From contig CAMPDV010000110.1 in NCBI GenBank assembly GCA_946699065.1, positions 310,001-374,000 on the forward strand: a stretch of DNA of 64,000 bases, in the 5' to 3' direction. A program made the position numbers and the translations under genes. The stretch is from Loxodes magnus (Eukaryota > Ciliophora > Karyorelictea > Loxodida > Loxodidae). Positions 39,167 to 63,461 of this stretch are shown one piece after another (position 1 is the first letter of the stretch; each line of letters begins with the position of its first letter). The notes under the pieces were generated by a model. The model was not told the DNA's origin. It ran no database searches and worked only from the letters and a program-made list of their open reading frames with translations.

Positions 39167-39925
39167 ATGGAACCAAAACAACTAGGAATAAAACTAAGTG
39201 CTAGCGGTAATAAGCCTAAAGAGTTCTATGCAAAGGAAAAGTAGTTTTCGAAATGTTTATACCTGAGAAAGGTACTTAAGAACAAAAAAGACAACTAAAC
39301 TCTTTATCATTTAATTCCTTTACTCCTAAATAAATACGAAATTTTAGTAAACATTTGTTATAACAATCCTTATTACTTACTACTAAATAAATATAGTAAA
39401 GATAATAATCCAAAATACGTAAATATTGTTTACTTGCAAGTAAAAATTAAAGAGGAAGATCAGCATTTTATTGTTCTTGGATTGTTTAAAGATGTTCCCA
39501 AAACTAGTGAAAATTTCAGAGCTTTATGTACTGGAGAGAAAAAAAATAGCAATTAAAAGCCCCTACATTATAAAAACTCCATTTTTCATAGAGTTATTCC
39601 AGATTTTATGATTTAAGGAGGTGATTTTACAAAATTTAACGGAACAGGAGGAGAAAGTATCTATGGAACAAAATTTGAAGATGAAAATTTTATTTACAAG
39701 CATGATAAAGTTGGAGTTTTATCAATGGCAAATGCTGGAAGAAACACTAATGGAAGCCAATTTTTCATAACTCTTGTATAATGTCCTTGACTTGATAATA
39801 GACATGTAGTTTTTGGAGAAGTAATTGAAGGAATGGAGGCAGTTAAAGCAATAGAAAGTTAAGGATCATAATCTGGTAATACAACGACAAGAGTTGAGAT
39901 AATTGATTGCGGCCAGTTTAAATGA
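39167..39925 (+). CDS. Cyclophilin-type peptidyl-prolyl isomerase
   Basis: 252 aa. The C-terminal 170 residues are a complete cyclophilin domain: [39 protein letters not shown] (catalytic Arg; the conserved Gln is TAA), [41 protein letters not shown] and the C-terminal [10 protein letters not shown]. The conserved Trp that contacts substrate and cyclosporin (residue 208, codon 39788-39790) is encoded by TGA, and the gene ends at TGA 39923-39925. It is the best internal proof of the genetic code. The first 80 or so residues are a basic extension ([20 protein letters not shown]) not typical of small cytosolic cyclophilins. Catalyses cis-trans isomerisation of Xaa-Pro bonds in protein folding. 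Confidence 0.95.
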
Positions 39926-40016
39926 GGAGGATTTTTAAATTTTAAATTTTAAATCTGAAAAAAATATTTAATAAAGTTATTTTTTAACTAAGAAGGAAGT
40001 TTTTTGAAAAAAAAAA

Positions 40017-40909
40017 TGGTAGAAGGTTTCAAAAAGGGCTTCTATACCACCTCTTTCTAAGCTAAAAAGGAAGCAAGAAACATAAATTTCTAAACACCAC
40101 ACGTCATCTTCCAAAACCAAACCTTCTTCTTAAACCATATAGGAACAACTCTAAGCAACACCCTCCAGACAACCCTAGAAACACTAACATGCAACAATAT
40201 CGACTGAGGACCTTCCCAAGAAGCAAAAGATTAGTAACTTTCAGGCCTAGATTAGGACATTCAACCCCTACATGGACCTCGGAGATCTCAATAAAGAACA
40301 AATCTTAGGAATGACGAAGGAGGAAATGGCTAAGCTTATCTTAGCATTAATAGGAAAAAATAAAGATCTGGAAAAACAGATTGAAGAACTAGCTTAAGAA
40401 CAGCAAGAGCATTTAGAAGATGAGGAAACCCATGCTCCTAGAAACTTAAACCAGGCTGCAATGAATATAAGAATTGACGAATTCGATAGGCAGCTGGAAC
40501 AATTATACGAATCGAATGAAAATATTCATATCAAATTGGAAAAATTAGAGACAAGTGTAAAATAATAGGCTATGCAATCTATCCCAATGGAGATCGAATA
40601 AGAGAATAATAAGCCAATTGAACAAACTAAAGAGAAATATTTTAGGAAAAAATGTTACATCTGCAGGAGAACAGATCACCTATGGAGACGATGCTGGAAG
40701 AGAAAGGAGATTTAATAGAAAATATGGAATGACCTAACCTAATTTTACCCAACCAGGAATGGAGAAATTTATAAGAAGAAAGCAAGCTATATGAAGAGAC
40801 AACCATTCCGAAAACTTGACAGTGAAGGGAGGAGAAGACCACCTAGAGATCAAGTTCCTATTGGTTGGATAGGGAAGTAGGAAGCTTTTAAGTAGACGAT
40901 CCTTCTTTA
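40017..40909 (+). mobile_element. Gag-like ORF copy 1 (coiled coil + CCHC), frame-broken
   Basis: Starts ATGGTAGAAGG..., giving EGFKKGFYTTS, which matches GGFKRGFYTTS of copy 2. The main frame then shifts once near 40060. The protein has a basic, Pro/Gln/Ser-rich N-terminus, an amphipathic coiled coil (DLEKQIEELAQEQQEHLEDE; DEFDRQLEQLYESN), the segment SIPMEIEQENNKP, a CCHC zinc knuckle at 40653-40694 (CYICRRTDHLWRRC, spacing C-x2-C-x4-H-x4-C), then FYPTRNGEIYKKK and a basic tail ending IGWIGKQEAF. This is the architecture of retroelement Gag/ORF1 proteins. Immediately downstream is a (TTTAA)n tract. No reverse transcriptase, RNase H or integrase motif follows. GC is higher than in the flanks. 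Confidence 0.7.
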
Positions 40910-41817
40910 ACACTTTAATTTAATTTAATTTAATTTAATTAATTTAATTTAATTTAATTTAATTAATTTAATTAAATTTAATAAAAAACTAAGAAGAAAA
41001 TATGTATTTTTAATATAAAATTTAAAGTAAAGACTAGAAATCCAAATAATAAACTTTAAAAATTATAAGGAAACATTTTTAACTCATTATATTTTATTTA
41101 TCATTACAGAGTTAAAAAAAATTTGAACGTTTTACATCTAATAATTAATTTATAAAATAAAATAAAAAAGAAAAGAAACAATAAAAATAAAAATCACATT
41201 ATAATTAAAAATGAAAATAATTGAATAGAAAAAATTATGATAAATTTAACAAGATTAAATAATATATCAATTTTATCATATTAACTTAATTTAATGTAAA
41301 CTGCAAATTGAATTAAATATAGAAAAAAAACTTAAAATAATTAAATAATAAAGTAGAAAGTGTTGAAAATGAATGAGAACTATTTTATAACTTCAGATTG
41401 AAGAGAGTATTTTTAAAACAAAAAATAATATAATCTAGTAATTTTTTAAACTCTTTATTAATTCATTATAAAATATTTTTGCATATCACTAATTTCATTA
41501 TAATTCTTAAATTTATTTTATAAAGTTAATCATATTTTTAAATATAATTTTATATAATAAATGTATATGATGATTATTATGCTATATCCAATAAGCTAAA
41601 TCTAATAATTTTGCAAATTTGTAAATTTCTTTCTATTAATGATAATCTTACTTGCTATAATGGTTTAAATGTATAACCTAGATAATATTTCAAAAGTTAT
41701 GCAATTTTTCTTAATGTTATAAGTTTTTTTACTAAGTTAAATTATGTTATAAAATGATTTCTTTTAAAATTTCTAGTCAAGATAGTATAAATTCAAAGCA
41801 GATTCTAAAATTATAAT
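40910..41817. repeat. (TTTAA)n microsatellite and AT-rich spacer
   Basis: 40911-40985 is a pentanucleotide tract (TTTAA units with occasional TTAA interruptions) directly after Gag-like copy 1; a short version also occurs at 54703-54721. The tract could be the element's 3' tail or a pre-existing target. The remainder to 41817 is very AT-rich with no recognised gene. Confidence 0.6.
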
Positions 41818-44800
41818 ATGGAACTAAAATAGTCGGAAGTTAGTTTGAGCCAAGAACTATAAGTAGTAAACAGCAAATAAGAGCTACTAATCCAAGAAAT
41901 TCCAGTGAAAAGCAATGCTTTTTTAATTTTAGATATTTTACTAAAAGAGCAATATGTAACAACATAAAATAATGCTTATAACCAAAATGCTATTAAATTG
42001 TTCTTTTTCAATTACTTGGTTAATTTCATAACTAATCCCTTATCGTAAAAAATTAACTATTTATGGAATCTATGAAATGATAAAAAACTTAAACATCAAG
42101 AAGTCTAAAATATAATTGACTGGAAGGATGAAGGTTTGATTTAGTCTAAGGAAACAAATGATTTTTTCTTTAAGTTATATAAATATGATGCACATATGAA
42201 TTAGAAATATGAGTAATCAATTTTGGATAAATCAAATGACATTCAAAATAAATAGAAAAATAATTATGTAAATATAATGTTAAAGCCAGAAATTAAAACC
42301 TGGGAAATAAAATAGTGAGGATCATTATAAAATAAAACTAAGTAAGTTTTGCTAACTTAATTAAACATTCCTTAGTTAGATGAAGATTCTAAAATTCTAA
42401 TTAGCAGAGCTAAATTACCTATTTATTAACTAGAAAGAGATTTCGATAACTAAAATATAATTAAAATAAGAAAAAAAAAGTTTATAAAAGAGCAATTACA
42501 AAAATAGTTTTATGATATTAAGCAGTCATAAGAATTATATCAAGAATTTACAGACTTGCTTGAAAGAAAATTTGATATAGTTCAGATAACTTATGCTTTT
42601 CTCATTAAAAATTAGCTAGGATTAAATAATTATAAATTAATTAAAATAAGCAACAAATTTCCTTAACAAATACCTTAACAGCAAATCTATTAATACAATG
42701 CTAAAGATAATTTAGATAGAGAGGAAGATTTTTAGAATCAACTTAAAAATTTAATTAATCATGCAGACTTTAAAAGCATATTTTACAGTAAACAAATAAT
42801 CTAATATGAAATCATACTTTAAGGTTTTTGGATAACATCTACTATAAAAAATTAGTAATAGTAAGTATAATAAGGATAAACTAAAACAGAATTCATTATA
42901 TAGAAATCGGAAATTATAAAGGTAGTTAACTATTTTTTTGAGGTTTCATTTTAACTTAAAAGCACTTTATTAGAAGATTAATTTTTATTATAAGAAAATT
43001 AACTCTTTGATCAATAGAATGTTATCTAAAATAAATAGAAACTATTGCAAATGAAATAAAATGAATAAATAAAAGACCGAAGTATAAAGCTTTAATAAGA
43101 AGGACAATAAGAAATACCCTCTAGTTGTTATGAAGACTTCAATGAAAATAAAGAATATCAATTAAAAGAAAAAGAAATTCCTCAAGGCTTTATAGTTTAC
43201 TAAATAGTTAATTATTCAAATAATCCAAAGGAATGAACTCACTATAAAAGCATTTCAACTAAAAGAATTTTAGAATTTTGTGAGAAAATATTTAAAGATA
43301 AAAGCTAAGCATAAGATTTTGCAAATAAATTAGATCATTTTAATGTAATTTAGCTTATTTATCTAAAGATGTTTGAAAATGTAAAAGGCTTTAATTAATT
43401 TGTTACTTCAATAAGCATACTAAGTAATTTAAATGATGGTATTAACAAAAATGTTATAAGAAATCTAATAGAAGAAAATTAAAACAATTTGATATACCAT
43501 TAAATTGAAAGAAGCTTATGCTAAATATTAGAAAATATAAAATATATTATTATAGTTGATAACGAGAAACTTATTTTTTGAATGTAACTAGACTAAGAGA
43601 AATAAATAATAAGTTCACCCTATATACAAAATTAGATCAGTTAAAAAACATTTGAAGAGATAATTTAGAAATCTAAGTCAAACTGAAATAAATTAATAAT
43701 TACTGTTGAAGATAATAGAATAAATTAAGGGTGATCACTATTCTCTTATTGGGTGGATTAATAAATGAAGATATATTTTAATGAAAATAATAAATGCAAT
43801 ATAAAAACTAATTTAGAATTTTGGAAATGATAGCATAAATTTCCTTAATGTATTTTCATAAAAGACATATATGAAAAACCTGACGAAAAGGCATAAAATA
43901 AAATTTAAAACAAATAAGAAATCAAAGATCATACTAAAATTATATTAGTTTAAAAAGGATAATAGAAAAGAGTAATAAAACTAGTGAAGTATAATAATAA
44001 TCCTAACTACATAGAGCAAATTATACAGAAATTAAGGCAAAATGAAAATTATAAAAATTACTGTTGTGAGATATTTAATTTCGAAATTAATAAAGAAGAA
44101 AAATACTATTGAATTGAAATGGAATACTGTGAAAAAGGAACTTTAGATTATTTTATCTAAAAAAGACAAAAAAGATAATTTAGTTTAGAAGAAATTTATA
44201 ATATGGCTTAACTTTTAATAAACGCTTTTGCTTTTCTTTAGGATTTAGAAATTTATCACTCAGATATTAAGCCAAAAAATATTTTCATAGATTCTTTAGA
44301 TAATTTCAAGATAGGTGACTTTGATTTTTCAGATCCGCAGCAATAACTTTAAGACTAAAAAGAACAAGCATATACACAAGGGTATTAATCTCCTTAAATA
44401 GAATAAAAATAAAAAAGAAATGCTTACAAATCAGATGTTTACTCTTTAGGAATGACTTTACTCGAAATAATCACTCTTAATACTAGATACTAGCATTAGT
44501 AGTTAAACTAATAAAACTCGCTTAATATTTCTCTATATATAAAACTTTAAGCTATAATTGAACCTTTTTAAGATAAAAACCTATTATTTCTTCTATTTAT
44601 AATGCTTTAGGGAGATGAAAATTTAAGAAAAGACTTTTAAGAACTACGAAATTTAAATATAAGGAATCTAAATTAGGATTTTTAAATGTATGGACTATAC
44701 TAAGAATAAGAAAATTAGCTGATTGATATTTAAATGATATAGAAAGTATATCAAGAAGTTAAATTGATTTAATAAAATGACTTTTAATGTTATGATATAA

Positions 44801-46911
44801 AAAGTTCTTAAAAATGCAATAGAAGTTAATTTCTATCTTCCAGTTTTTTCAGTTATAACTCTAGATCTATGAATCAAAGTAATTAAAATTCTAAATAATA
44901 ACCAATTAAAACACAGGCTAATTAAATAAGCACTTAATCACTTAATAAACATAATGAAAGTATAAAATGAGATGAAATTCCTTATCTATAACTAGAAGGA
45001 ATTAAAAATAAGTTCAAAAAGAAATTTTACTTAATAGAGATAATGTAACAAAAGCTATATGCTAAAAGAGAGCATTGGCAAACAAATTTTCAATAAATTT
45101 AATATTAAAATAAAGTTTTTATAGGTTAATTAAATGAAAGCTAAACTCCAGATGGATTAGGTAGAATACTCTAAAAAAATTAGTACTATGAAGGTAATTT
45201 CAAGTAATTTAAATAAGGAATAGGTATCGAAATAGATTTAAATGATGAAAAAGTACTTTATGTGTAATATGAATCTGGAGAGATCAAGAATCAATTTCTT
45301 ATTATGAAAAAAAATGATGAAAATCAATGTCTTTTACTAAATCAAAATATCAGAATTCCTTACTTAAAAACGAAACCTGGTCTTGATATTTTAATGAATA
45401 ATTAATAAGAAATGTGAACAGATATTCACTAAGATAGTTTATATTTCGTCTATTAATATTAAAGTGATTAATCAATTTATACCGGGTAAGTAAATAATAA
45501 TAAGTAACCACATGGAAAAGGAAGATTATTTCATTTTTTTAAATAATTCTATTATGAAGGAAACTTTAATAATGGACTAAAAGATGGTAAAGGAATTTTC
45601 ATAGACTTATAGAGAAAAAGAATTTTTGTTGCAAGTTTTGATTAAGATTATATGAAATGTTAATAAGACTTCTAAATAGAAATAAAAAAAGAAAATTTAT
45701 GTTGCTAAGTGTGTAAAACCAAATAATGCTATCTTGCTAATGACTGCAATTGCCATTCCTTAAATATAACCAAAGAAGAAAAATATATTTAGACATTGAA
45801 AATTTAAAATCAACTGAAAAGAGATTTAATTACTAATAATCTATATTTTAGTAAACTAAAATTAGAGTAAAATACCACTTAAAGAGATATATAAAACACG
45901 TAGATGTAATTTACTCAGTTTTACTAACTACAAGAGTATATTAATTTAGTTAATTGTAGTACAGATCATTAAAAATATAGACATAATATTCTAGCAAAAG
46001 GAAATTTTATTTACTACAAAGATTAAGAAAAAAGCAAAATAAGTTGCTATGATATTCAATCAAGATAATCCTATTAGTATTATCAAAATAAAAGTGAAAA
46101 AATAGAAATGCTAGCATTTGATATTTATGATCCTCTTAGATTAATAATGTTTTTCACTAAGTAAGGATATTTATTCATTATTAAGGATAATGAAATTAAG
46201 TAAAAAAAACTATATTAATAGAATGACTTTGATGCTTTAAGTCATATTTAGTTTACAAAAGTAAATTAAGATTTAAAAATTTTAGGAAATTTTGGCAGAT
46301 AACTTTTAATTAGAGATTTAGAAAAGCTACATATATAATATTTTTTGTTTAATGATATTTTTAATCATGCTGCTATCTCTCCTGATTCTAAATTAATTGC
46401 TTTAGTTGGAAATTAATAAGAACCAATTTTGATTGATTTTGAAAGCAACAAATAAATTTCTAATTTTGGAATCAATTATAAAAATAATTACTTTACTGTT
46501 GATTGGAATTAAGCTAATTAATATTAATTTGCAACTGCTTGTGAAGATGGAACTTGTAAAATATGAGATATAAAGATGACTAGCTAACCGTTAAAAATTC
46601 TATATGCAGATTGTGAAAGCGTGTATAACTGTCAATTCTCTAAGTGTGGTTAGTTTCTTACATTATCTGAAGATTTCTTTTTGCATATATATGATACTTA
46701 AAATTATAGTAATTACTAAAGAATAGAGCAATGTGGAAGTATAATAGGATTTGCTTATTCGGAAAACAATGAATAAAACCTTTGAATTGGAGTAAAAAAT
46801 GAAGAACAATAATTTTTAGTAGAATATCGGAAAAGTAAATATTCTTAATATTGGGGATAAATTTAGGGAAGAAAAGAATAGTTTCAACAAAAGGATTTAT
46901 TTTAAGAGTGA
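41818..46911 (+). CDS. Protein kinase / MORN / WD-like fusion protein
   Basis: 1,697 aa in one frame from ATG 41818 to TGA 46909-46911, intronless. The N-terminal 700 residues are helical and Gln/Asn/Lys rich. The kinase domain covers about 714-940: KRVIKLVKYNN (VAIK-like Lys), EMEYCEKGTLDYFI, YHSDIKPKNIFI (catalytic Asp present, HRD Arg is Ser), GDFDFSDP in place of DFG, and SDVYSLGMTLLEI. MORN-type repeats follow at about 1095-1280: YYEGNFKQFKQGIGIEID, PHGKGRLF, YYEGNFNNGLKDGKGIF. The C-terminal part has WD-like blades (FATACEDGTCKIWDI, CQFSKCGQFLTL). At least a dozen internal TGA read as Trp, including the WD Trp. The DFD variant suggests altered Mg2+ binding. Low GC for a gene of this size, yet the domains are unmistakable. 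Confidence 0.82.
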
Positions 46912-49165
46912 AAAATAGCAATCTATACTTTTATATTTAAAAATAAAATAAAAATTTATTAAATATTAATTAATAATAATCAAAACTTAACTATATTTAA
47001 TTTTTCTTTTCTTTTTAATTTATATATTCAAATATATTTACAATTAAAAATATTTATCTTACTGTGCTAGCAAGTTCTATATTTTTAAAATTTTGTTAGT
47101 TAATGATTGCTATGCTTCAAAAAAAGATATTGATTTGGGTATTTCTAAATTAAATTATAGATTTTTTGTTTATTCTTAAGAAACTCTGAAGGATAAGAAC
47201 ATAAAATATTTTTCCTTTTTATGTTGAATTTTTGACTTTAAACAATTTGTTAGAAGGAAGATATATAATTAAAAGAATATCTTTAATTTAATAAATTTGA
47301 AAAAAATTATCAAAATATTTAAATATAAGCAATTTAAATAAAGATTAAAACTACCTTATATAGCAATTTATCTAAAGAAAATAAATTTTCTTAAATATCA
47401 GCTTTTAATATCCTAATAATTTTATATTATTTTTAGTTCTTTAATTTTAGTCAATACATTTTTTAAAATTAAAAGAAATAATTAATTCTCAACATGATAT
47501 TTAATTCCTAAAATATTTTATTTATATAATATATATTTTAAAGAAGAGATAATTTTAGTGTTTATAATATCACTTATTAATAAATATTTCATGCAATATT
47601 TCTAAATAATTATATTAAAAAAAGGAGAATATTTTTTATTTCTAGAATAACTTTTTTTATTTTAATAATTTTTCTATTATAAAAGACACTTATTTAATTA
47701 TAATTTAAGATTAAAATTTTGTATTTAAAAAGAAATAAATGTTTATATAAAAACAGTTAATTAGATTCTAAGTTTAACCTTAATAATTTTATAAATAAAA
47801 TGTTAATTTTAAGGTTTATTCTTATCTAATATAATTTAGAAATAAAAATAGGAAGCTTTTAAATGCATAATCTTACATATTTGCATAATATATTGATTTT
47901 ATTTTTATATAATATTTTCATTTTAGATCTTACTATATAATAAGTAAATATTTATTATATATATTTTAGTAATCATCTACCATTTATATTAAAAATGTAA
48001 TTATAAGTATTAATGCTTATAAAAGATACTGAAATTAATTTAAAATTAAAGATTTAAAGAAATAAATTTTTAATTTAAATCCTTCTAATTTTTAGTTAAT
48101 TTTTGTCTTTTGATTTTTAAATTAAAATTAGTTGAGATTCTATGCTACTTTTAAAAGAAATTATTAACTACTTATATAAAATTTCTTAATCTTGATAAGC
48201 AAAAATCCATTCAACTAAGAATAAAGCAAATAATACATTTGTGAATCCATAATAGTATTAGTTTGTTAGGTTATTAATTTAATTTTTATGCCTTTATAAA
48301 GTAAAATTTTAAATAATATATAAAAGATACAAGAAATTTTATTATGCTAAATTTTCTATAAGAAAGAGGATTTTTTATTTAATATAGGAAGTAAATATTT
48401 AAAATTAGAGAATTTAGTCACAAATTTCATTAAAGAAATTAAAAAAAAGTTTTCATTAAATGTAAACCGAATAACTACAAATTTACTTTATTAGAAATTA
48501 TCTTTTTGAAAGATATTATTAAATGAATAATATTTAGCCATATTTCTTTTTAAATTTTTTAATTCTGAGATTTAAAAATATAAGAATCTAGCTTTATCAC
48601 ATAGAAATTAAGATTAAATTATAATATTCTTATCTTAAATTTTTAATTAATAGTTCTTATAAAAATATGAAATTTGTTTAATACTTTGATGATTTTTAAA
48701 ATTAAAATAATAATTAAAAATAAATTTAAAATTGTTTTAAATATAAAACAGACTATTATAATTAACTAATACCGTGGTTTTTAAAAAATTTACTTCAAAA
48801 ATAGTTTTCAGATAAAATTAATTCAATAAAATTTATAAAGATTGTAAATTATGAAAATTTTAATAATCTAAATATTATTAAAACAGTTGAATTTTAATTG
48901 AGCTTTAAATAGAAAAACAATTATCAAAATGAAATAAAAAAATAAATTTGTTGCAATATAATTATATTTAGTTATACATAATTAATTCAAAAATGTATAA
49001 TTTTTTATGATAGTTAAATAATTAAATATTAAGAAAAATTAAATGGAATTATCCAGAGTTCAAATTAGGTACATTATACTAAGAGCTTTTCTATAAACAA
49101 TTTTATATTTATAATACTAATTTGACTAATATTAATTTATTTTAACATTATAGTAAATTTAAAAC
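46912..49165. other. AT-rich spacer, no gene seen
   Basis: About 2.25 kb of extremely AT-rich DNA with homopolymer runs and no motif-bearing frame, RNA gene or clear dispersed repeat that I could detect. Confidence 0.65.
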
Positions 49166-49480
49166 TTTAATAATTGAAAAGATGGTGGGAGCTGAGAATG
49201 ACCTTCGTGACAACACTTTCTGGTTTTATGGCTAGGAACAAGTTCCTTTCCTGTCGCTGAGAAAGTCCCTGGTCAGAGTCATTTTCTGAAGGGAAAACTG
49301 TCTTTTAGATTATCCGCTCTTGGTAGGGGTTTGAAGCCTGGCTGTTCATAGGGATGGAGCTCCCTAGCAGCTGTGCCTTGAGCACAACAGGATATCCACG
49401 TTATTCCATAAAAAGAGAACGTTGGGTCGTGCAATCGGAAACTCCTTTCCGGTCCAAAAACTTTTTTAGTTTAAATTAAT
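49166..49480 (+). repeat. 315-bp GC-rich structured repeat, copy 1 (RNA candidate)
   Basis: About 94% identical by eye to 63147-63461. Both copies begin TTTAATAATTGAAAAGATGG and end GGTCCAAAAACTTTTTTAG, a T-run compatible with a Pol III terminator on the plus strand. The 275-nt core is GC-rich and self-complementary. GGGAGCT near the 5' end can pair with AGCTCCC near 49358. A GGAA-CAAG-TTCC hairpin (copy 2: GGAA-GAAA-TTCC, a GNRA loop on the plus strand) and a CGGAAA....TTTCCG hairpin near the 3' end are present. The nearly invariant core and loop changes favour an RNA gene or a Pol III SINE-like repeat. I tried RNase P/MRP and SRP RNA signatures and could not establish either. Confidence 0.65.
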
Positions 49481-49541
49481 TAATTAAATTTTAGTCTTTA
49501 GATAAATTTATGAAACTAGTAATTATTATATAAAATATGGA

Positions 49542-49705
49542 TGTCGGCCGTGGTCGGAAGAACTAGTTGGTAATCTATTGTAGTGTGTACTACATTGCAA
49601 GTAATCAAGCACTAGATGCCACCACTGGAAAAGGTGGATAAGCTCGGAAGAGAAAGTCTAACTTGCCCAAAGATTCTCGCTAGCAGTATGAACGTTTGTC
49701 CGACA
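49542..49705 (+). ncRNA. Unidentified 164-nt structured RNA candidate
   Basis: The ends pair (TGTCGG at 49542-49547 with CCGACA at 49700-49705) and enclose several hairpins: TGTAGT-GTGT-ACTACA, CCACC...GGTGG, CTC-GGAA-GAG with a GGAA tetraloop, and GAGAA...TTCTC. GC content is far above the flanks. A T6 run follows at 49731-49736. The two ends, the hairpins and the terminator all suggest a Pol III transcript of about 165-190 nt. It is not a tRNA, 5S rRNA or a spliceosomal U RNA by sequence. I see no telomere-template-like segment. Strand is inferred from the tetraloop and T-run. Confidence 0.5.
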
Positions 49706-49746
49706 AGCCTTCTTATTAATTACTAATTCTTTTTTGGATCTTATTC

Positions 49747-49872
49747 AAGAAGACTGGAACATTTGGTTCTAACATCAAGAATAATCTTTAAAAGCAGATT
49801 CTCCATTTGGATAAGCAGACGTGATTCATTGGACGAATAAAATGTCAATAAGAAGTATTGGAATACTTTTTT
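49747..49872 (+). ncRNA. Possible small RNA with terminator-like hairpin
   Basis: 126 nt of intermediate GC directly after the previous candidate. Contains GAAC-ATTTG-GTTC, AGAAT...ATTCT and TCC-ATTT-GGA pairings, and ends with the perfect hairpin AAGTATT-GG-AATACTT (49853-49868) followed by T residues. Could be a separate small RNA or the 3' part of a longer one. No snoRNA C/D boxes or other signature found. Confidence 0.3.
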
Positions 49873-50042
49873 AATATTAAATATTAATATTGAAAGATTC
49901 GCATGCTAAGGAGGTGCTACACACTTAATAGTTAAAGTTAAAAATTAAAAAGCTTTGTTAAAGCCTTAGTAGTCAGCCATCTGACCTATTCTATCAGCTT
50001 GTCTCTATTAGTTTGTCTTGAATTCCTACTAGGCTTAGTTAG

Positions 50043-51105
50043 GCGGTGTAGCACTTCATTAGTGCACCATCCTTTAATATTCGGAATGGTTTTGGTCTTG
50101 CACTTAGCGTTCCTAATTATTTATCCAACGATTAAGATTTGAATTAAAGAATTTTTTTCCATAAATTTTTCCGCTTTATGTTGGATATATCCTAAATAGT
50201 TTTCTAAACACATCTTATTTATTCTTTCTTTAAATTTCGCTTAGTTAGTAGCAGTATTTTCATTGGTGTTATTTATTGCACAAGTAGCATTTTATTCTTT
50301 TTTTAAACTATTATTCCTGTAACACTTATTTAATTTAAATTTACTACTTATTTTAAATAAACGTTTACTGTTTATTTTAATTTGAGGCTTCATTTTCTAT
50401 TTCCATAGGATCTGATTAATTCTGTTAAAACGAAAATGGCGTTAACTGAATTTATTATTAAATTTAAAGAATTATTTGTTCCAGTTTGTTTTCTATTTCT
50501 TATGATTATTAATATTGCTTCTCAAGTAAAGACGTTATTAGTTTTTCTAATTTTTCTACTTTATCAGTGAGGTATCTATTTTTAAAAATAAACTCTTTTA
50601 ATGACTTAGATAATATTTCTATTTGAGTTTGTGTCGGAAGTTTTTTTAATTCTGGATTTCCAAGTGGTTAATGTTCGTCATATCAATCATATTTCTCACT
50701 TTCACTCATATTAATTATTTCGCTTTTTTATTTTTTAGAGAATTTTCCTGCTTAAATGTTTTGTTCAAAGTTCTGTTATTCCTAGAAGCAATTTTATTAT
50801 ATATCAATAATAATATTTATTTATTTTAATATTTTTAATTTAATATTTATTTTTATCTTCTGATATTATTTATCTATTTTTAATAGTTAAAATCACATTT
50901 TTTAGATGATTATTAATTTGTTTAGATTAAGAAAGCAAATTTTTTTAATAATTAATAGTGCTTAAAATAAATAGAGATTGAAAAATAAAATATCTAATCT
51001 TAAAACTAGTTACAGAAATAAAAAGATATTAAATTAAAAGTAAAATATCTTAAAATAGATAAATAAATTTGGTTTTGGGGCGCGTAGCACCCCGTTGGTG
51101 CGCAG
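50043..51105 (-). mobile_element. Intact Gag-like element (copy 4) with terminal hairpin repeats
   Basis: The intact Gag-like ORF at 50056-50709 is bracketed by two copies, in direct orientation, of a 25-bp hairpin motif. One is at 50043-50068 (GGTGTAGCACTTCATTAGTG) and one at 51080-51103 (GCGTAGCACCCCGTTGGTGC). In each, GCACY...RGTGC forms a stem, and the two copies differ by paired changes (GCACT/AGTGC against GCACC/GGTGC). The ORF's TGA stop lies inside the left copy. Further 3' of the ORF, AAGCCTTAGTAG (49961-49972) and CTACTAGGCTTAG (50026-50038) form a long stem, and GTGCTACAC at 49914 is an inverted match to GTGTAGCAC at 50046. Boundaries are inferred from these repeats; no target-site duplication was established. 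Confidence 0.5.
50056..50709 (-). CDS. Gag-like protein, copy 4 (coiled coil + CCHC), intact
   Basis: 217 aa, ATG 50707-50709 to TGA 50056-50058. Order: acidic start MSESEKYDW, basic coiled coil (TDKVEKLEKLITSLLEKQYQ and ENKLEQIILQ), SDPMEIENE (matching SIPMEIEQE in copy 1), a Gln-rich linker, the zinc knuckle at 50251-50289 (CYLCNKQHQWKYC, C-x2-C-x3-H-x4-C), then IYPTQSGKIYGKKF, which matches FYPTRNGEIYKKK in copy 1, and a basic tail. The Trp in the knuckle is TGA. The intact frame and two conserved blocks outside the knuckle show common descent with copy 1. Expected role by analogy: RNA binding and assembly of a ribonucleoprotein or capsid. No catalytic ORF adjoins it. Confidence 0.68.
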
Positions 51106-51110
51106 CTCTT

Positions 51111-51708
51111 TATAATAAAATTTAACTTTTAATGTAAAAATTACATGTAATAGAATTGCTCAAATTTTAGTCTATTTTTAAATAGTAATGATTTGAAAAT
51201 TTGAAAATCATCTCAAAGTCTGTAAAATATTAAGCATAAGTATCTAAATAATTTAATCTTCAATTAATTGATTTTAATCAGATAAGAAATTTTTGTGCAA
51301 TATTTTCTCTAGATTTCCTTTTTTAATTTTTTCTCATTTTTAAATCTTTATAGTTTAACAAATATAAATATAAAATATAGCCATAAGAATAGTAATAAAT
51401 TTATAGATTTTACTAAAATAATAATCCTTTTATTTAATATTTTACATTTTATTTTGGTTTAAATAGTTTAAAATTTAAATTATTTCCTGTTTATCTTAAT
51501 TAGTGTTATACTTACTGCTTTCAAAAATTGATATTTTTCTAATATAAAAACCAAAAGGGATGCTTTATTTATCTATACTATAATATAAAAAAGGAAAAGA
51601 TGATAATTAAATTTATAGTGTGTTGCATTATTTATTGAAATAAAATTATTGAGAAAAATTTAAATAATTAAGCCTTTGTTTAAATAAAAAGTAAACAAAA
51701 TTTACTAA
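51111..51708. other. AT-rich spacer upstream of tRNA-Met
   Basis: No gene or repeat recognised. Confidence 0.6.
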
Positions 51709-51781
51709 GGACTTATGGCGCAATGGTAGCGCGGCAGTCTCATAATCTGCAGGTTGGAGTGTTCGAATCCTCCTAAGTCTA
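51709..51781 (+). tRNA. tRNA-Met (CAT), elongator type
   Basis: 73 nt including discriminator A. Acceptor GGACTTA with TAAGTCT (G-U at the end), D-stem GCGC/GCGC, anticodon loop CTCATAA with CAT at 51741-51743, and T-arm GGAGT-GTTCGAA-TCCTCC region. The anticodon arm GCAGT/TCTGC with a T-T mismatch at the loop end is the usual elongator Met form. No intron, no encoded CCA. Followed at once by a T6 Pol III terminator. Outside the anticodon arm it is identical to the tRNA-Trp gene 0.8 kb downstream except for one T-loop base. Confidence 0.95.
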
Positions 51782-52483
51782 TTTTTTATAATAAAATAAA
51801 ATTTATTAAAATTAACTGTTTAAAGAATAAATTAAAAACTAAAGCATTATGAATTATTTATATAATTATGATAATAATACCTAAATACTTGCGGTATAGT
51901 TAAAAATGTATCTTTTTAAATTTAAAATTGACCAAATTTTAAAGTGATTAAAGTTAAAAAAAGGTTTTTAAAAAACTAATATATCAGAAAATAAAATAAT
52001 AGTCATATTATATAAAAATAAATTTCTTAGTTAATTAAATTAAATTAAAATGGAAGGAAGGAAGGAAGGAAGTTAAAAAATTTTAAAGATTTTCTGTTTA
52101 AGAAATTTAATTTGTAAGATTTGTTAAATGCTCATGAAATTTTAAGAGAAAGTCGTAAAATTTAGTATAAATCTAAATTTTCTCTAACATAAAATTATTT
52201 ATTAAGCTGAAAAGCGAACATTATAGAATTTAATTTAGTTTAATTTCTCTAGTATAAAACTAATAAGATAAAGCATTTTTTAAGCTTAGTTATGCTAATA
52301 TATCTGATTTAATGAAAGATACATAAAATTTTACATGAATCATGCGAAATATCTTCTATAAGCAATAAAAATTTAAAATTAAATTATATATCATAAAAGA
52401 GAAAGGATTTATTTTAGTAAAAAGTATATAAAGAATTACAACTAGTAATTCCATTTAAAAAATTCAAAAAGAAAAACCTCTAA
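51782..52483. other. AT-rich spacer between tRNA genes
   Basis: Contains a short (GGAA)n run near 52051-52071 (GGAAGGAAGGAAGGAAG). Nothing else recognised. Confidence 0.6.
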
Positions 52484-52556
52484 GGACTTATGGCGCAATG
52501 GTAGCGCGTTCGACTCCAGATCGAAAGGTTGGAGTGTTCAAATCCTCCTAAGTCTA
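52484..52556 (+). tRNA. tRNA-Trp (CCA)
   Basis: 73 nt including discriminator A. Anticodon CCA at 52516-52518 in loop CTCCAGA; anticodon stem TTCGA/TCGAA has the full 5 bp. D-arm GGCGCAATGGTAGCGCG and T-arm as in the tRNA-Met copy. A T4 terminator follows at 52559. It reads UGG by standard pairing. In this organism UGA is also Trp, so either this tRNA reads UGA by wobble or a separate tRNA-Trp(TCA) exists elsewhere; none is in this window. Confidence 0.95.
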
Positions 52557-53185
52557 AATTTTATCTTAAACAAATATAGATTTTCATTTAATTTTTATTA
52601 TTTAGTTTTTTTTATTTATTTAACTATCTAATAGTCTCTTTTATAAGGAGAAAACTGTCAAGAATTTATGTAGACAAGGATGGAAGAATATTTAGAAGGA
52701 GGTTTTTTCAAGGGAGTACAAGAAATTTTATTTTAAATTTCATGGAACAAACACTGGAAATATGTATTGAAGGGGTTTAAAATCCCCGGATATACGAGTA
52801 CTTTAATTTAGTATAATATTATTATTAGTCTCTTTTATAGATTTTATCTCTGATATTTGAATAAATTTTTTTATTACTATCCTAAAAAATTTGAATTATA
52901 GAATAATGATTTTCTAGTTTTATGTTATATATTTCATTTTGAAAATTCCAAGATCTATAGAGAACTAGTTAGTCATATTTTGGTATAATTTTGTTAATAA
53001 ATTTAAGTTTATTTCTTTAAAAATGTTTATACTTTAATGTAAAATTTTTAAGCATTATTCTTTAAACTTTTATTAATAATATTGATAGATTTATCTAAAC
53101 TTAAATTATAAGATCTTTAAAAAATTTTACTTAGAAAATAATAATAATAATAGGATAAATTAAGTTTAGCAATTATTGAGGATTT
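52557..53185. other. AT-rich spacer
   Basis: No gene recognised. A slightly richer patch at 52645-52790 (AAGGAGG, CCCCGG) shows no structure I can support. A TAA trinucleotide run occurs near 53140-53153, next to the 3' end of Gag-like copy 2. Confidence 0.5.
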
Positions 53186-54086
53186 TCACCTCTTCATGCT
53201 AGACACCAGATTGCTCCGGCGTTAATAATAAAGTTTTAAAGGTCTCTCTTCCTCTCTCCTCCCACTGCTCATGTCATTTCCAATTCTATCTTCATTTCTA
53301 ATCAGATTTTCTCTTGTAGATGAAACCTAATTAATTTAGGTATAATCTCTCTCTGATTTGTCTCTATTTCATTTGTTTTTCTTCCTCTGCTGAGCTTGTA
53401 TTCTTCTTTATTTAATCCAATACTACGTCTTGAAATTTTGGAATTTCATGCAGCGTCTTCACAAGTGTTTTGTCGAATTGCAGTAGTAACAATTCTTCAC
53501 TACTTTTTGTAGTTAACCCTAGTCTTCATGTTGGTCTCTTCAATCATCATTTGATCTCCCCTTTGTTCATCTAGCTTCTTTTCTAAGTTTTCCAGTCTGT
53601 AACTCAGATCAGATTGTTTCTGAAGCTAGTTTTGGGATTAGTTTATTTGGTCTTAGGATATGTATCAGAAAGCGCTTATTTCTCTTTCTTAGGACATAAG
53701 TCTGGATTCTATTCCTTCTGCTAGGCTGAGTTGTTCAGTAAGCTTCTCATTATCCTTCCTCAGTTTCCTAACTTCTTCCTGGATGTTCAGTACCACTTTG
53801 ATGAGCTACTCCATGCTCATCTGGCCAGAAGGATTAAATTCTGACACATCCTGGTGATGAGCAGACTTCATCTACTTTCTTGGCTTTTCCTCCGATGTAG
53901 GATTTATTACTTGAGTTGCTTTCTAGGATTTCTTTTGCTCTTCATATCCTTTTTGAATTTCAGGTTGTTAAGATTAAGAAGAAGGTTAAGGTTAAGGTTA
54001 AGAAAAAGACGACTGGCCAAGATTGGATTCAGGTTTCCTCTCCAACTTTTTGGAGGTGGTGTAGAAACCTCTTTTGAATCCTCCAT
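53186..54086 (-). mobile_element. Gag-like ORF copy 2 (coiled coil + CCHC), frame-broken
   Basis: Minus strand, GC-rich relative to flanks. Starts just after ATGG with GGFKRGFYTTSKKLERK, closely matching copy 1. Then come a Gln/Pro/Ser stretch (SFSQPQPQPSSQSQQPE), the coiled coil (LIKVVLNIQEEVRKLRKDNE; DLSYRLENLEKKLDEQ) and, in a shifted frame, the knuckle at 53450-53491: CYYCNSTKHLWRRC. This shares HLWRRC with copy 1; here that Trp is TGA, there TGG. The basic tail ends SNLVSSMKR at TGA 53186-53188. At least one frameshift separates the coiled coil from the knuckle, and the ATG is out of register with the conserved block, so this copy looks inactive. Confidence 0.68.
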
Positions 54087-55549
54087 TTTTTATTTTACTT
54101 AGAAAATTAATTATAGTTTAAAATATATAAAAACATTGCTGCTATGAAATTTATTCCAGATGTTTGAATTTTAGTAAAATAAATTAAATAGATGAAGAAT
54201 AAATAAAAATATTTTCTAATAATATAAAATAAAATATAATTATTATAAACTAATAAAAATAATATAAAAACACTAAAATTATATTTTAAAATCATTATTT
54301 AAAAAATCAATTTTATTAAATATTTTTAAATTTAGTATTAAAAAGATTAAGTTTTATAGCAAGAGTTAATTTCAATTTTATTTTATAAAGAAAATATTCA
54401 AATATAGAATCCGATTAAGAATACTTTATTACTAAATAATTTATTAATGTTTATAAGAAAAAGAAAAGCATAAAAGTAATTTTATCCTTATTTTATTTCG
54501 AGTGGAAATAAATATTTACATTAATTTATATAAATAGTTTTATTTTTTTAATTAAAACTTAATTTATTATAAAGATAACTTTATTCATTCTTAATGCTTG
54601 CTAAATTTATTTTTAAGTTGATTAATAAATAGAACTAGATTAAATGAGCCTTTTATTTTATATATTTAGTCAAAAAAATAATTTGTGAAATAGCTTTAAA
54701 ATAATTTAATTTAATTTAATTAAGGTTGCAAGTAAAAGATCTAGAAACTAGAGAAAGATAAATTAATAAGATTAAAAGAAATTACAAAAGCATTTTTTTA
54801 ATTATTGATAAAGAAATTAAATTATTATAATATAAAGTAGAAGATATACTTAATTTTTTAATTTTCTTTATATTAAGTTTGTTTTATAATTTCACATATT
54901 AATACTTCTATAATTATATATTTCATCTTCACAAGTTTTATTCATAGAATAACCTAATAAAAAAAGTAAGCTAAGTTATTTTTAAATTATTTATCTCTTA
55001 AATTATTTTTCTTTATCATATTGGTAATATTTTGTATAAAATAGAGATATAATATTTTTATCGTCTTTTAGATTTTTGTTATATATCATTTTTATTAATG
55101 AAATTATATTTAAAATATTTTGCTTATAATTAATAAAATTTAGTTTATCCATTTATCTATTTATCTATTTATTTAAATTTATAAAATTAAATTCAAATTT
55201 AGATTAAATGGTAGAAAGAAACTAGCTCAATTTAAATATAATTTATTTTATAGTAAATATTACTTATTAAAAGAAAACAAGATAAATACACATTTTTATA
55301 ATTAACAAATTGAATGATTTTTTTAATTTAACTTAATTTTTTTATGTTCTTTAGTATTATATTTCAGATTTTTTAAACTTTTAATTTTAAATAATTTCTT
55401 TGGAAAATATTAACTCTGTGAATGAATATTTGGTGCAAGTTTATAGAAATAAGTTATAATTAATATGTTTTATCTATTTAAACATTATAATAATATATCA
55501 TCTTTATTTTTATTTAAATCACCCTTATTATTACTAAAATTTATTTGCG
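54087..55549. other. AT-rich spacer, no gene seen
   Basis: Very AT-rich with TTTAA-type and TATC-type short repeats (54703-54721; 55154-55174). No recognised gene. Confidence 0.6.
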
Positions 55550-56137
55550 TCATATAATATTAACTTATTATAAAATAAATTTAATTCTATTAAAAACATC
55601 AAATTAAGGAGCATTTAAATTGTCAATCTAAAATCGATCTCGTCTTTATTACCTTCATTTATGAAATTATTATTGTTTAAATCTTTCAAAATATTATAAA
55701 GTAAATTCTCGATAATTAAAGTGAGCCATTTTAAAGTTTAAAGGATCAGCAAATTTTTTTTCTATAACAATTTCATAAAACTTGTTACTATTAAATTCTT
55801 AAGGAATAAATTATTTTATAAATAATTGTCTTTATAGATAACTTTTTTCTATTTTACCTTTTAAATTATTTCTTTATACTGTTTTCACTGTCAAAGCTAC
55901 AAAATATTATTAATAATAATAAGTAACCATATAATTATGCCTCTATTTCCTATTTAGCAGCAAGATAAATAATTATATATCTATTTATAATTTTTCTACC
56001 TTTTTCTTTTCTTTCATTTATTCATAGTAGAACTATTTACAAAGTGATACATGAGTATAGATATAACATTAATTCTTTGAAATCAGCTTTAAACTAGGAC
56101 TTTAGTATTAAATTTTAGATTTACTTGTCAAATGCAT
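55550..56137 (-). CDS. Hypothetical 195-aa ORF
   Basis: ATG 56135-56137 to TGA 55550-55552 with a single internal TGA. The C-terminal half is protein-like with aromatic and charged residues (KFYEIVIEKKFADPLNFKM, HFNYREFTLQYFERFKQQQF, FQIDNLNAPQFDVFNRI); the N-terminal half is basic (EQMKEKKKVEKLQIDIQ). The frame may extend further 5'. No family recognised. It lies 0.45 kb downstream of the RING-H2 gene on the same strand. Confidence 0.35.
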
Positions 56138-56591
56138 AAACGATTTACAGACTAATGATTTATTTTTGATAATTGATAGCTATTTTAAATTTAAGTTTAT
56201 AAAGATTGTTCTGAAATAAATTTATTAGAAATATTAAAGGATACTAATGAAGGGATTATACCAAATGACTAATTAAAATTCAAATAAGCACCTTTTAAAA
56301 GTCTTTAAATGAAAAAAGAGTGTAAAAGGATATTTGCTTTAATATAAGTTAAAATTAAAATTCTACTTAGAAAGTATATTCAAAATCTAATTTACAAATA
56401 AACTACCAAAAGTTAAAAAATCCTTTAGATATTTAGATATTCATATTTAATTATTCTTAAGCTAATAATAATTTACTTAATCAATAAGTAATTTTCTATT
56501 AATTTTACGTATAATATAAATTTGTAATATTTTGGAAATGCTTCTAAATAATCTAAATCGTATAAACAAATTAAATAAAATTTTAGCTTCA
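56138..56591. other. AT-rich spacer
   Basis: Between the hypothetical ORF and the RING-H2 stop. Nothing recognised. Confidence 0.5.
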
Positions 56592-57839
56592 TCATAGTTT
56601 GATTAAAATCTCTTTTTATTAAAATAACTTCTATTTAATTATTATTTTGATTTAATTCGCTATTAAAGTATGAATATATTAAAAAATTTAATGTCGGATT
56701 TAATAATCTACAGCTACATTAAATGAAACTGGCAAATCCGATATATTTTATGAAGATTCAGTTTGAATTTGGTGATTTCTAATATCTTTATCCTTTTCTT
56801 GATTGTTCATATAACTTCTACGACAAATGCAACATGTCATATACTATTTAAATCACTAATCTATGCACTCTTTATGGTAAAAATGTTTACAAGGTAATTT
56901 TCTTATTTAAGCTCCGTTTTTAAAATTACTTAAGCAGATGATGCACTCTTGATATTGCTTATTATTACTATCTGAAACATATTCAACTTCTGGAAATTGC
57001 AAGTGAATTTTTAAGTATTCGACTAATATTTTATTATCAATATCTTGCATCTAAATTTATTAATCTAAATTATTAAGTTCCAATGGATTGCACTCTTTAA
57101 CTATTCAGTATAATATAAATGATATATCTATAAGAGCCATTCCTATTGCAAACCACATAGCTGTAGTTATTCTAAATTTCTTATTTAATTCTAGATTTAA
57201 TTCTATATTTTAAGTTTTATTTTAGTTATTTACTATCTTCAAATTTCAAACTCCTTTCTTTAGTTTTATTTCTGTGCTAAAATTTCGATCAGTAGATATG
57301 TTTTTTTGGTATGTCTAAAAATCAGGTAAAACTTCTTCTTCATAATCTTAACTTCTAAAGAAAAGACTTATATTCTTTGATGTTTTAATGGATATTCGAA
57401 GAATATCAGTTTCTTCTTATATGTTAAAAACTAATCATTAATATGAGGAAGAAGTTAAATTTATATTATATCAATATCCAAATTCTATTTCTTATCCTTT
57501 AATACTACAATCATAATCTAACCAAGGCAATTTACACTAGCATTTACAATTTTAGTCATTATATCCATTGGTGCTACAGTTGTTAAGGCATTTTTTCTCT
57601 TAAGAGAATGTAAAAGTTAAATTATATTCTAAGAGATGCTGCTTTTCTCAGTTCAAGTTATTAATAGCAACCATCAAATTTTAAAAAGGTAAATAAACTG
57701 TTATATTTTGATGATTTCTGTGCAAGGCTACATTATATCAATCAATAAGCTAAATCTATTATTCTTATTTCTATTCTTTTATACTGGAATTATGCTAAAT
57801 TGACATCACGCAATTTCATTCTTTACTTATAATATTCAT
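56592..57839 (-). CDS. EGF-like / TM / RING-H2 protein
   Basis: 415 aa, ATG 57837-57839, ending in two consecutive TGA codons (56592-56594 and 56589-56591). The N-terminal luminal/extracellular region has an EGF-like Cys cluster (KKCLNNCSTNGYNDQNCKCQ, then CKLPWLDYDCS). A TM helix near residue 250 (TTAMWFAIGMALIDISFILY) is followed by a canonical RING-H2: CIICLSNF...LPCKHFYHKEC...CCICR, with the Trp before the seventh ligand (DQWF) encoded by TGA. A RING-H2 after a TM helix is the layout of PA-TM-RING/Goliath-like ubiquitin ligases, here with an EGF-type instead of a PA ectodomain. No obvious cleavable signal peptide, so the N-terminus may be incomplete. The last 50 or so residues are a basic low-complexity tail. 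Confidence 0.82.
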
Positions 57840-57949
57840 CTCTATAGTCAAATGCTTATACTAGTCAAATGCTTACACAAAAGTCTGACTCAAAGACAAA
57901 ATAGAACTACTTAAATTAAGGATTTATTAAGTCTAAAATTAATAAAAAA

Positions 57950-58825
57950 ATGGAAATGGAATAGAATATTCGACTATCTAAAAATTAGGCAAGGAACGCA
58001 AGAAGAAGAGCTAACAAAGAACTAGAGAAGAAGTAGAAATCAATGGAACACTTATCAAGCTCCTCTTCAGAAGGCAAAGTAATGGTTGGACAAGTTAATG
58101 AGAGCACTTCGCTTTCAATTGAAATGGAAAAGATGAAAAAATTAATTTCTAAATATGAAGAAGAAACATATAATCAAGGAGAAAGAATTAGAGAGCTTAT
58201 GAATAACATTGAGGATCAAAATAACGAACTATTAATTCTTAGGAAATAGCTTATATAAAATAATATTGTGACAGAACAATAGCTCTATACTCAGTCTTAA
58301 AATAATTTCAAACAAGGGGTAAACATGAGTATTGAAGTCCTCCCTTCTTAAGCAAAAGATTAAGAAATAAATATAGAATAAAATGTTGATAAAAGTTTAA
58401 TTAAAAGAATAGAACAAATAGAAAAATTAGTTTTGCCTTAGTTGAATAAAAAAAAATAGACAAAAAATTGTTGATGTTGTAGGTCGAAATATCACTTATT
58501 AAAAAATTGTTAAAAATGATAAAAATTGAAAAAAAGAGAAGAAATAAAAACATGAAGGATGTTAAACAAACTTTGAATAACCGACTCAGGAATTTATAAA
58601 TAGAAATTATTTAGTGGTAACATGGAAAATTCATTGTGGTAGCCACCCACATTCAAAAAAAGGCCGTGGTATACATCCACGTTAAAAAAAAGGCGGAGCG
58701 AAATCGGTTGGAATCCCGAAGAACTCCAAAACTCTTAACATTTAGTTTACATTATTATTATTATTAAGTCTAAAATTAAGTAAATTAAAACTACAAGTGC
58801 TAAAGGTAATAAGCATGTGCTGTGA
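57950..58825 (+). CDS. Gag-like protein, copy 3 (coiled coil + CCHC), open frame
   Basis: 291 codons from ATG 57950 to TGA 58823-58825, one frame. N-terminus basic (RLSKNQARNARRRANKELEK), Ser-rich linker, coiled coil (EMEKMKKLISKYEEETYNQG and RIRELMNNIEDQNNELLILR, then IKRIEQIEKLVLP), CCHC knuckle at 58469-58510 (CWCCRSKYHLLKNC, C-x2-C-x4-H-x4-C, its Trp is TGA), and a basic tail. The tail holds an in-frame tandem duplication of about 30 bp (58636-58664 and 58666-58693) giving two W..PT/ST..KKR units, then EIGWNPEELQN, similar to IGWIGKQEAF of copy 1. Same order and spacing as the other three copies. No polymerase ORF follows. Confidence 0.65.
58636..58693 (+). repeat. Tandem duplication with GTGG/CCAC hairpins
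   Basis: Two units, GTGGTAGCCACCCACATTC and GTGGTATACATCCACGTTA, each followed by AAAAAAAGG. Each unit can form a GTGG...CCAC stem. It lies in frame within the tail of Gag-like copy 3 and adds about 10 residues. Confidence 0.6.
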
Positions 58826-62500: not shown

Positions 62501-63146
62501 GATCTTAAATTTTATTTTAGTGCTTTTAACAAAAAAATTCAACATTTAAATAAAGATCATTTAAAAGTTTGAATAGCTTAATTTATTTCACTCTAGATTT
62601 AAAGAAAGGATTTTCAAAATATTATGCAACTGTATAAATCAAAAATTTTAAGTTAATTTAAAGATAAAAAATAAAAATATAAAAATCAACCTGCTAAAAA
62701 TTAAGAAAATAATCATTATTAAATTTATAAAAATAATAAAGTTCTAGATATTGAGCAAACGTAAATAGACTATTAATGTGCTTAATTTTAAATTAGAAAT
62801 ACTAAAGAATAATTTTTAATCTAAAGATACCAGGTAAAGATAATTTATTATTGAGCTAAGTGATTGAAGCTTTTTATAAAACTGCTTAAATATTTATTCT
62901 ATTAAATCGCTAATAAATTCTTTAAGTTAATTAATTATATCTATTTAAAAGATTTAGGTAATCTATTTAATTCTAATGTGCTTAGAAATTCCTATTTATT
63001 AAAAATCAGAATAATAAAAAGAAAATATTATATTATTATATTTAAGCCTAAATATAATAAATTATTTGTTTAAAGTTTAAATAAATTTTAAATTCTTAAA
63101 TTTTATATATTTATCATATATCAAATATATCATCTAAAATAAAAGA
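62501..63146. other. AT-rich spacer
   Basis: No gene recognised. Confidence 0.55.
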
Positions 63147-63461
63147 TTTAATAATTGAAAAGATGGTGGGAACTGAGAATGACCTTTGTGACTAAACTTT
63201 CTGGTTTTATGGCTAGGAAGAAATTCCTTTCCTGTCGCTGAGAAAGTCCCTGGTCAGAGTCATTTTCTGAAGGGAACGCTGTCTTTGAGATTATCCGCTC
63301 TTGGTAGGGGCTTGAAGCCTGGCTGCTCATAGGGATGGAGCTCCCTAGCAGCTGTGCCTTGAGCACAACAGGATATCCCCGTTATTCCATAAAAAGAGAG
63401 CGTCGGGTCGTGCAATCGGAAAGGAGTTTCCGGTCCAAAAACTTTTTTAGTTGAAATTAAT
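63147..63461 (+). repeat. 315-bp GC-rich structured repeat, copy 2 (RNA candidate)
   Basis: Second copy of the 49166-49480 element, same orientation, about 18-20 substitutions and no net length change. It keeps the upstream TTTAATAATTG, the GC-rich core, the terminal hairpin and the T6 run. The terminal hairpin has a GGAG tetraloop here, where copy 1 has its complement CTCC. A minus-strand 72-codon frame in this copy is a by-product of the GC-rich sequence and is not supported. Confidence 0.65.

Follow-up and report, generated by a model that had tools for sequence, protein, structure and literature searches.

Very short, high-copy retroposons with a single zinc-knuckle gene in the karyorelict ciliate Loxodes magnus

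HAL1 (half-L1) of mammals is a non-long-terminal-repeat (non-LTR) retroposon that encodes ORF1p only and receives reverse transcriptase (RT) in trans, and its open reading frame (ORF) is described as having stayed coding over long times in guinea pig (PMC5753468, PMC3627910). HeT-A of Drosophila carries only an ORF1/Gag-like gene and takes its RT from another element (PMC4700185). It is telomere-specific, with a promoter in its 3′ untranslated region (UTR). For Loxodes magnus, long interspersed nuclear element (LINE) families rnd-1_family-27 and -19, 5–6 kb long and equipped with endonuclease (EN) and RT, have been reported alongside interspersed repeats that are mostly unclassified (757 k copies, 366 Mb; PMC11441545). 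Here we analyze a stretch of 64,000 nucleotides of this genome (the window; C110:310001–374000), in which four ORFs encode CCHC zinc-knuckle proteins, together with the assembly from which it derives (705.7 Mb in 7843 contigs). The four ORFs represent four families (F1–F4) of complete retroposons of 0.82–0.98 kb, each mostly one ORF. We consider it likely that they are the sole genes of very short, RT-less elements of non-LTR type that are HAL1-like, with a protein acting in cis and RT supplied in trans.

The elements share one layout: an A-rich leader of ~10 nt, the ATG, a coiled coil, the CCHC knuckle, a G-x-IY-xx-K motif and a short-repeat tail. Across the 8–10 loci compared per family, similarity halts at the same two ends and the flanks are unrelated. 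The tails vary in length and consist of (TTTAA)n in F1, (TTA)n in F3 and F4, and (TTTTAAC)n in F2. Target duplications were measured as the longest exact match between both flanks, with mismatched flank pairs as the control; five loci (L004, L013, L018, L023 and L028) were left out of this test and of the within-family selection, flank-composition and in-frame-TGA tests because their flanks duplicate another locus. A match of at least 12 bp was found in 4/7 F1, 7/8 F3 and 6/8 F4 copies (17/23 overall, with duplications of 12–18 bp), and the mean match of 11.6, 14.2 and 12.5 bp, respectively, compares with 5.9–6.3 bp in mismatched pairs. An F4 copy in locus L022 (duplicated in L023) interrupts the RT gene of a LINE-C, and the gene continues beyond it.

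Copy numbers are high throughout. In DNA searches 40/40 scored matches were obtained for each family, the window's own copy included, at identities of ~98% (F1), 97–98% (F2), 90–96% (F3) and 98–100% (F4); first-look candidates, which extend beyond the 40 scored in each case, numbered 1678 for F1, 1712 for F2, 4523 for F3 and 2023 for F4. Genome-wide pattern matching with up to two mismatches, for which the reversed-pattern control gave 0 with each pattern, recovered 407 5′ ends of F1, 696 of F3 and 300 of F4, dispersed through the assembly, as well as 286 F4 3′ ends. The similar numbers of F4 5′ and 3′ ends thus provide no indication that 5′ truncation is extensive. Of the 39 F4 matches listed besides the window's own, 33 end at positions 814–824 of the 876 query bases and the remainder by 841. 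Pairing of F4 ends, which used exact matches only and covered 87 of the 100 listed 5′ ends (up to contig C526) and 100 listed 3′ ends, placed a listed 3′ end 776–817 bp away from 49 of the 5′ ends and none by the other 38; 21 of the 49 paired copies have the same length modulo 3 as the open copy in the window.

A sequence-only reading of the window had proposed four Gag-like ORFs, here denoted by their coordinates (40017, 50056–50709, 53186–54086 and 57950), and translation under table 27, in which UAA and UAG are read as Gln, confirms all four at these places, each with its knuckle. The F1 copy (40006–40986, + strand) starts with an A-run, has its ATG at 40016, is frame-broken near the start of the ORF, carries the knuckle CYICRRTDHLWRRC at 40653–40694 (+) and ends in a (TTTAA)n-type tail. 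Its target-site duplication AACTAAGAAG (39986–39995, second copy 40987–40996) was found by eye, is imperfect past 10 bp and was missed by the automatic flank test because the tail of this copy is longer. The F2 copy lies on the − strand (49925–50800, approximate ends) and has lost its start codon; it carries 3′ hairpins, a (TTTTAAC)n-type tail and the CCHC-like knuckle CYLCNKQHQWKYC (50251–50289, −; TGA read as W), and is without a target-site duplication. The original start codon lay ~83 nt further upstream of the 50056–50709 ORF and is intact in other F2 copies. F3 is represented by a frame-broken copy with a (TTA)n tail at 53140–54091 (−), bounded by a 16-bp target-site duplication (54092–54107, second copy 53124–53139), with the knuckle CYYCNSTKHLWRRC at 53450–53491 (−). 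The F4 copy (57943–58762, +) sits between the two halves of a 17-bp duplication (57926–57942 and 58763–58779), has its knuckle CWCCRSKYHLLKNC at 58469–58510 (+), and its ORF is open from the ATG at 57950 through the (TTA)n tail; beyond the Trp codons near the knuckle it contains no TGA.

The motifs that the sequence-only reading described as shared between copies are real, and its copy numbering fits only if the copies are taken in the order 40017, 53186, 57950, 50056. FK.GFYTTS and HLWRRC are common to the 40017 and 53186 copies, PMEIE and YPT.xG.IY.KK to the 40017 and 50056 copies, and IGW to the 40017 and 57950 copies. Two copies are indeed open, and with this reordering they are those at 57950 and 50056. 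The coding sequence of the 53186–54086 copy runs through at least three frames, and the one frame quoted earlier is not the coding frame for its first part; as a single protein, that frame was rejected because the coding reading switches frame at least twice.

In L. magnus, UGA is described as a Trp codon at a distance from the poly(A) tail and as the sole stop close to it, and the median 3′ UTR as 41 bp (PMC11441545). The window is consistent with UGA as a Trp codon, since the same Trp of the conserved HLWRRC motif is TGG in F1 and TGA in F3 and RT domains in the genome are readable only with several TGA as sense. The window also holds a tRNA-Met (CAT; 51709–51781) and a tRNA-Trp (CCA; 52484–52556), the latter in a host also reading UGA as Trp.

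The encoded proteins have relatives beyond the window. By eye, 6/8 F1 copies (two being mutual duplicates), at least 8/10 F4, at least 5/10 F2 and at least 2/10 F3 copies are readable end to end. Further relatives occur in fetched loci (L010/L013, L012, L027/L028, L031, L034, L037, L040, L043/L072, L070 and L073), among which at least six additional types were named F2b, F4-like, F5, F6, F7 and F8, mostly with one copy each; the F5 5′ end is present in two loci. The six aligned families have an invariant C, C, H, C and G-x-I-Y-x-x-K, and often PM-x-IE before the knuckle. With the knuckle included, all six whole-protein pairs score above 1000/1000 shuffles. The sequence-only reading had stated that failure to align outside the knuckle would speak against a common family. 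Similarity there is clear before the knuckle for F1–F3 (0/1000 shuffles reach the score) and after it for F1–F2 (0/1000), F1–F4 (3/1000) and F2–F4 (1/1000), and weak for other pairs: F3 after the knuckle compares with the other three at 50, 56 and 125 of 1000 shuffles, and the remaining pairs before it at 12/1000 (F1–F4) or 62–109/1000. The term "Gag-like" is supported for the knuckle only. No Pfam model exceeded its cut-off on the F proteins, and a six-family profile yielded no homologue at E 0.01 in 3750 candidates among 5.8 billion proteins. The best matches to solved structures were HIV nucleocapsid knuckles, at a non-significant E of 0.09. An AlphaFold2 model of the window F1 protein from a three-sequence alignment, of low confidence (mean predicted local distance difference test score 53.2), has long helices at residues 101–187, a helix at 223–241, two short strands at the G-x-IY motif and no visible capsid domain.

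The substitution pattern points to purifying selection on the ORF, clearly among F4 relatives and more weakly for F3. The ratio of nonsynonymous to synonymous differences per site (pN/pS) was computed in all three frames of one DNA alignment. Between F4 and the divergent L037 copy it is 0.40 when read in the ORF frame, against 1.01 and 1.02 when the frame is shifted, and between F4 and the L010 copy 0.34 as opposed to 1.11 and 1.00. For F1–F6 it is 0.23 in frame, then 0.97, over 33 codons only. In the pairs F1–F3, F3–F7, F1–F7 and F1–F2 silent sites are saturated, and 28–37% of aligned residues are identical. Within families, variants present in at least two copies form a small set, of which 12/20 are synonymous.

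A protein kept by selection in an RT-less element therefore probably helps the RNA of its own element to get copied by enzymes taken from larger elements. We envisage that an mRNA-like transcript starts ~10 nt before the ATG and would be translated into the coiled-coil and zinc-knuckle protein. Acting in cis, this protein most likely attaches to the RNA that encodes it, in the role of a chaperone or nucleocapsid. The endonuclease/reverse transcriptase of a LINE could then insert copies of this RNA at new sites through target-primed reverse transcription. The F elements are thus best read as HAL1-like in mode and not as domesticated, a possibility raised by the sequence-only reading that the dispersed 5′ ends of F1, F3 and F4 do not support. 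Its suggestion of a gag-only family without a polymerase of its own is supported: every ORF takes up its own high-copy element, inserted separately and with defined ends, and none of the 38 fetched copies is followed by LINE EN/RT in the same orientation within 1.5 kb. Like HAL1, the F elements encode one protein, lack ORF2 and appear to have an ORF kept by selection; unlike it, they are shorter than 1 kb, have almost no UTR, comprise many families and have protein bodies that do not resemble the ORF1 of the LINE compared here (LINE-A), save for an N-terminal module in some. With HeT-A they have in common that the sole gene is ORF1/Gag-like. HeT-A is several kb long, whereas the F elements are short and, moreover, dispersed.

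APE-type EN/RT LINEs are abundant in the genome: all 150 scored RVT_1 matches, out of 3403 first-look candidates, exceeded the cut-off, LINE-A carries Exo_endo_phos_2 and RVT_1, and LINE-C-like DNA occupies more than 100 places, judging from a search whose query was the RT region translated off-frame. The reported rnd-1_family-27 and -19 LINEs are a probable RT source of the F elements. A connection to LINEs is visible in the DNA itself, as the first ~75 nt of F1 (MVEGFKKGFYTTS), F3, F5 and F6 are similar to the start of LINE-A above 1000/1000 shuffles; counted from the 5′ end, F5 is identical to LINE-A at 64/75 and 95/120 nt. The LINE-A ORF1 begins MVSFKKGFYTTS and continues into a longer protein with CCLCKVKGHTDQQC, the middle of which is RRM-like by eye only and matches no Pfam model; the ORF1s of LINE-A2 and LINE-B resemble it by eye. 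Past residue 25, the LINE-A ORF1 body has no similarity to F proteins (6/6 comparisons within shuffles), and a putative derivation from a LINE ORF1 is thus seen only at the 5′ end of some families.

Several observations weigh against a HAL1-like element driven by such LINEs. The LINE-A 5′ module is not shared by F2 and F4, and F7 matches it at most weakly (54/1000 shuffles). F1, F3 and F4 are without a 3′ hairpin like that of LINE-A: folding z scores are −3.4 for LINE-A, −2.1 for F2, −1.3 for LINE-A2, −1.1 for LINE-B, −0.7 for F3 and +0.8 for both F1 and F4. Flank matches of three LINE-A copies are 7, 8 and 11 bp, with the 11-bp match falling in a TTA run, as opposed to the long duplications of F1, F3 and F4. 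F4-type 3′ ends are not in excess, as they would be if a LINE shared them (300 5′ vs. 286 3′ ends), and 51 of the 100 listed F4 3′ ends lack a listed 5′ partner when exact matches only are considered, so that truncated or diverged copies exist too. F2 lacks a target duplication, as a flank match of at least 12 bp was found in 0/10 copies and the mean of 6.3 bp is close to the control of 6.0 bp. As to selection, F3 and the L070 copy display a weaker frame contrast (pN/pS of 0.46 vs. 0.68 and 0.69), and private variants within families are near neutral (71/208 synonymous vs. 0.27–0.33 expected), although nearly neutral private changes are as expected after insertion.

F2 resembles LINE-A in having a 3′ hairpin and, judging from three LINE-A loci, no clear target duplication. 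As F1, F3 and F4 differ from LINE-A in these respects, two mobilization routes may exist. A reading compatible with HAL1-like elements, which we regard as a tentative possibility, has them moved by another LINE clade or a host RT instead of the LINEs sampled here, and assigns F1/F3/F4 and F2 to two machineries. The long target duplications of F1, F3 and F4 and their missing hairpin would fit this, as would the 3′ hairpins, absent duplications and TTA-rich 5′ flanks of F2, but no such RT is found among the 150 scored RVT_1 candidates. TTA-type runs of at least 8 nt occur within 40 nt upstream of 4/10 F2 copies (L029–L038), 0/23 F1/F3/F4 copies and 2.0% of 2863 background stretches, as if tails of the F3/F4 type, or tracts resembling them, served F2 as landing sites. 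A 67-bp piece of a LINE-A 3′ end with its hairpin (51053–51119, − strand) lies upstream of the window's F2 copy, and in L039 and L073, too, F2-type elements begin ~80–100 nt downstream of a LINE 3′ end.

That the four ORFs are ordinary ORF1 pieces of full-length LINEs with an F-type ORF1, shortened by truncation or internal deletion, appears distinctly unlikely. LINEs do occur in thousands, judging from the RVT_1 candidates, and share with F elements both a CX2CX4HX4C knuckle in ORF1 and, for LINE-A with F1, F3, F5 and F6, the 5′ end. Such shortening, however, is at odds with loci that end alike in every family and with the clustered ends of the 33 F4 matches, and the tail and target duplication follow directly after the ORF. 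EN or RT sequence of a LINE was not found downstream of any of the 38 fetched copies in the same orientation within 1.5 kb, using the proteins of LINE-A, A2, B and C as queries, with EN taken from LINE-A only. LINE matches were present in five of the 38 flanks (L005, L022, L023, L025 and L035), either on the opposite strand or, in L035, as an ORF1 upstream of an F2 copy. In addition, a longer protein of a different sort seems to be encoded by ORF1 of LINE-A, A2 and B, and the shuffle comparisons, made for LINE-A, give no similarity between its ORF1 body and any of six F proteins. The absence of RT from the window, as claimed earlier, is borne out by a LINE-A ORF1/ORF2 protein search (E 1e-3) and by searches with DNA pieces of LINE-A, A2, B and C, whose sole traces overlap the one LINE-type 3′ end of ~67 bp at 51053–51119. 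Membership of the copies in full-length RT elements elsewhere, which the sequence-only reading had noted would reduce them to truncated ORF1 copies, was not observed in the LINE families sampled. Locus L043 (with L072) holds a 5′-truncated LINE-A, minus its last ~65 bp, fused to the last part of F3 and an F3 tail; as a LINE–F3 template-switch chimera it is ambiguous, the longest flank match being 8 bp.

It is highly improbable that the F elements are retroposons of the short interspersed nuclear element (SINE) kind with an accidental ORF. They are SINE-like in being shorter than 1 kb and of high copy number, with LINE-like short-repeat tails and target duplications, but an accidental ORF is contradicted by frame-specific pN/pS. 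Domain order and motifs agree across six aligned families, a conserved Trp is encoded by either TGG or TGA, and neither an Rfam match at gathering score inside the elements nor an RNA polymerase III-derived or other RNA-gene-derived head was seen. An origin as TR-GAG-like elements, i.e., gag-only derivatives of LTR type, or as retrovirus-like relics is just as improbable: the coiled coil, the CCHC knuckle and the non-significant resemblance to HIV nucleocapsid knuckles would suit it, but the termini are an A-rich leader and a variable short-repeat tail and not terminal repeats, target duplications vary between 12 and 18 bp, and a capsid is neither matched in Pfam nor visible in the low-confidence model.

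The ORFs of F1 and F4 lack a terminal stop within the element. Between a conserved C-terminal anchor and the end of the element (55–65 nt in F1, 169–178 nt in F4), an in-frame TGA was found in 0/7 F1 and 0/8 F4 copies; the first one beyond is reached 2–1044 nt into the flank, and F1 copies that are open lack an in-frame TGA over the whole element. In F2 an in-frame TGA precedes the element end by 122–132 nt in 10/10 copies, and in F3 the last one is 132–140 nt before the end in 4/7 copies and 44–55 nt in 3/7 (one further copy is without the anchor). We consider it improbable that the F elements are the first members of a class of short protein-coding retroposons, with a nucleocapsid-like gene lineage of their own rather than a cut-down LINE ORF1 and with cis preference via the missing stop. 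If this were true, a ribosome would run into the F1/F4 tail and stall, keeping the RNA-binding protein on its own RNA near the 3′ end, where reverse transcription starts.

HAL1 and HeT-A are the closest elements on record. The main text of the L. magnus genome paper does not describe an F-type group (PMC11441545), and no such element in a ciliate was found in the open-licence literature as represented by titles and abstract openings. The F elements name one coherent protein-coding group that may be among the unclassified L. magnus repeats, and they would show that ORF1-only parasitism occurs in a ciliate, in numerous families whose elements consist almost entirely of the gene. They also provide a test case for why an RT-less element keeps a gene: selection on its ORF suggests a cis-acting protein, so that ORF1-type cis preference could be studied apart from RT.

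A cyclophilin-type gene (38906–40010, assigned by eye) ends just upstream of the F1 insertion in the window; as it lies directly upstream on the same strand, F1 could ride on its transcript. A 327-bp repeat at 49154–49480 and 63135–63461 (93% identity), with further matches in L006 and L070 and no Rfam match, is probably another short dispersed repeat, and the F1 copy of L006 lies within or beside one. Near the ends of contigs C5131 and C20, RT matches recur in tandem every 2504 or 2532 bp, which reflects either arrayed LINE fragments or an artefact of assembly. Finally, a direct repeat of ~0.5 kb with 67% identity occupies positions 26541–27042 and 28195–28697 of the window.

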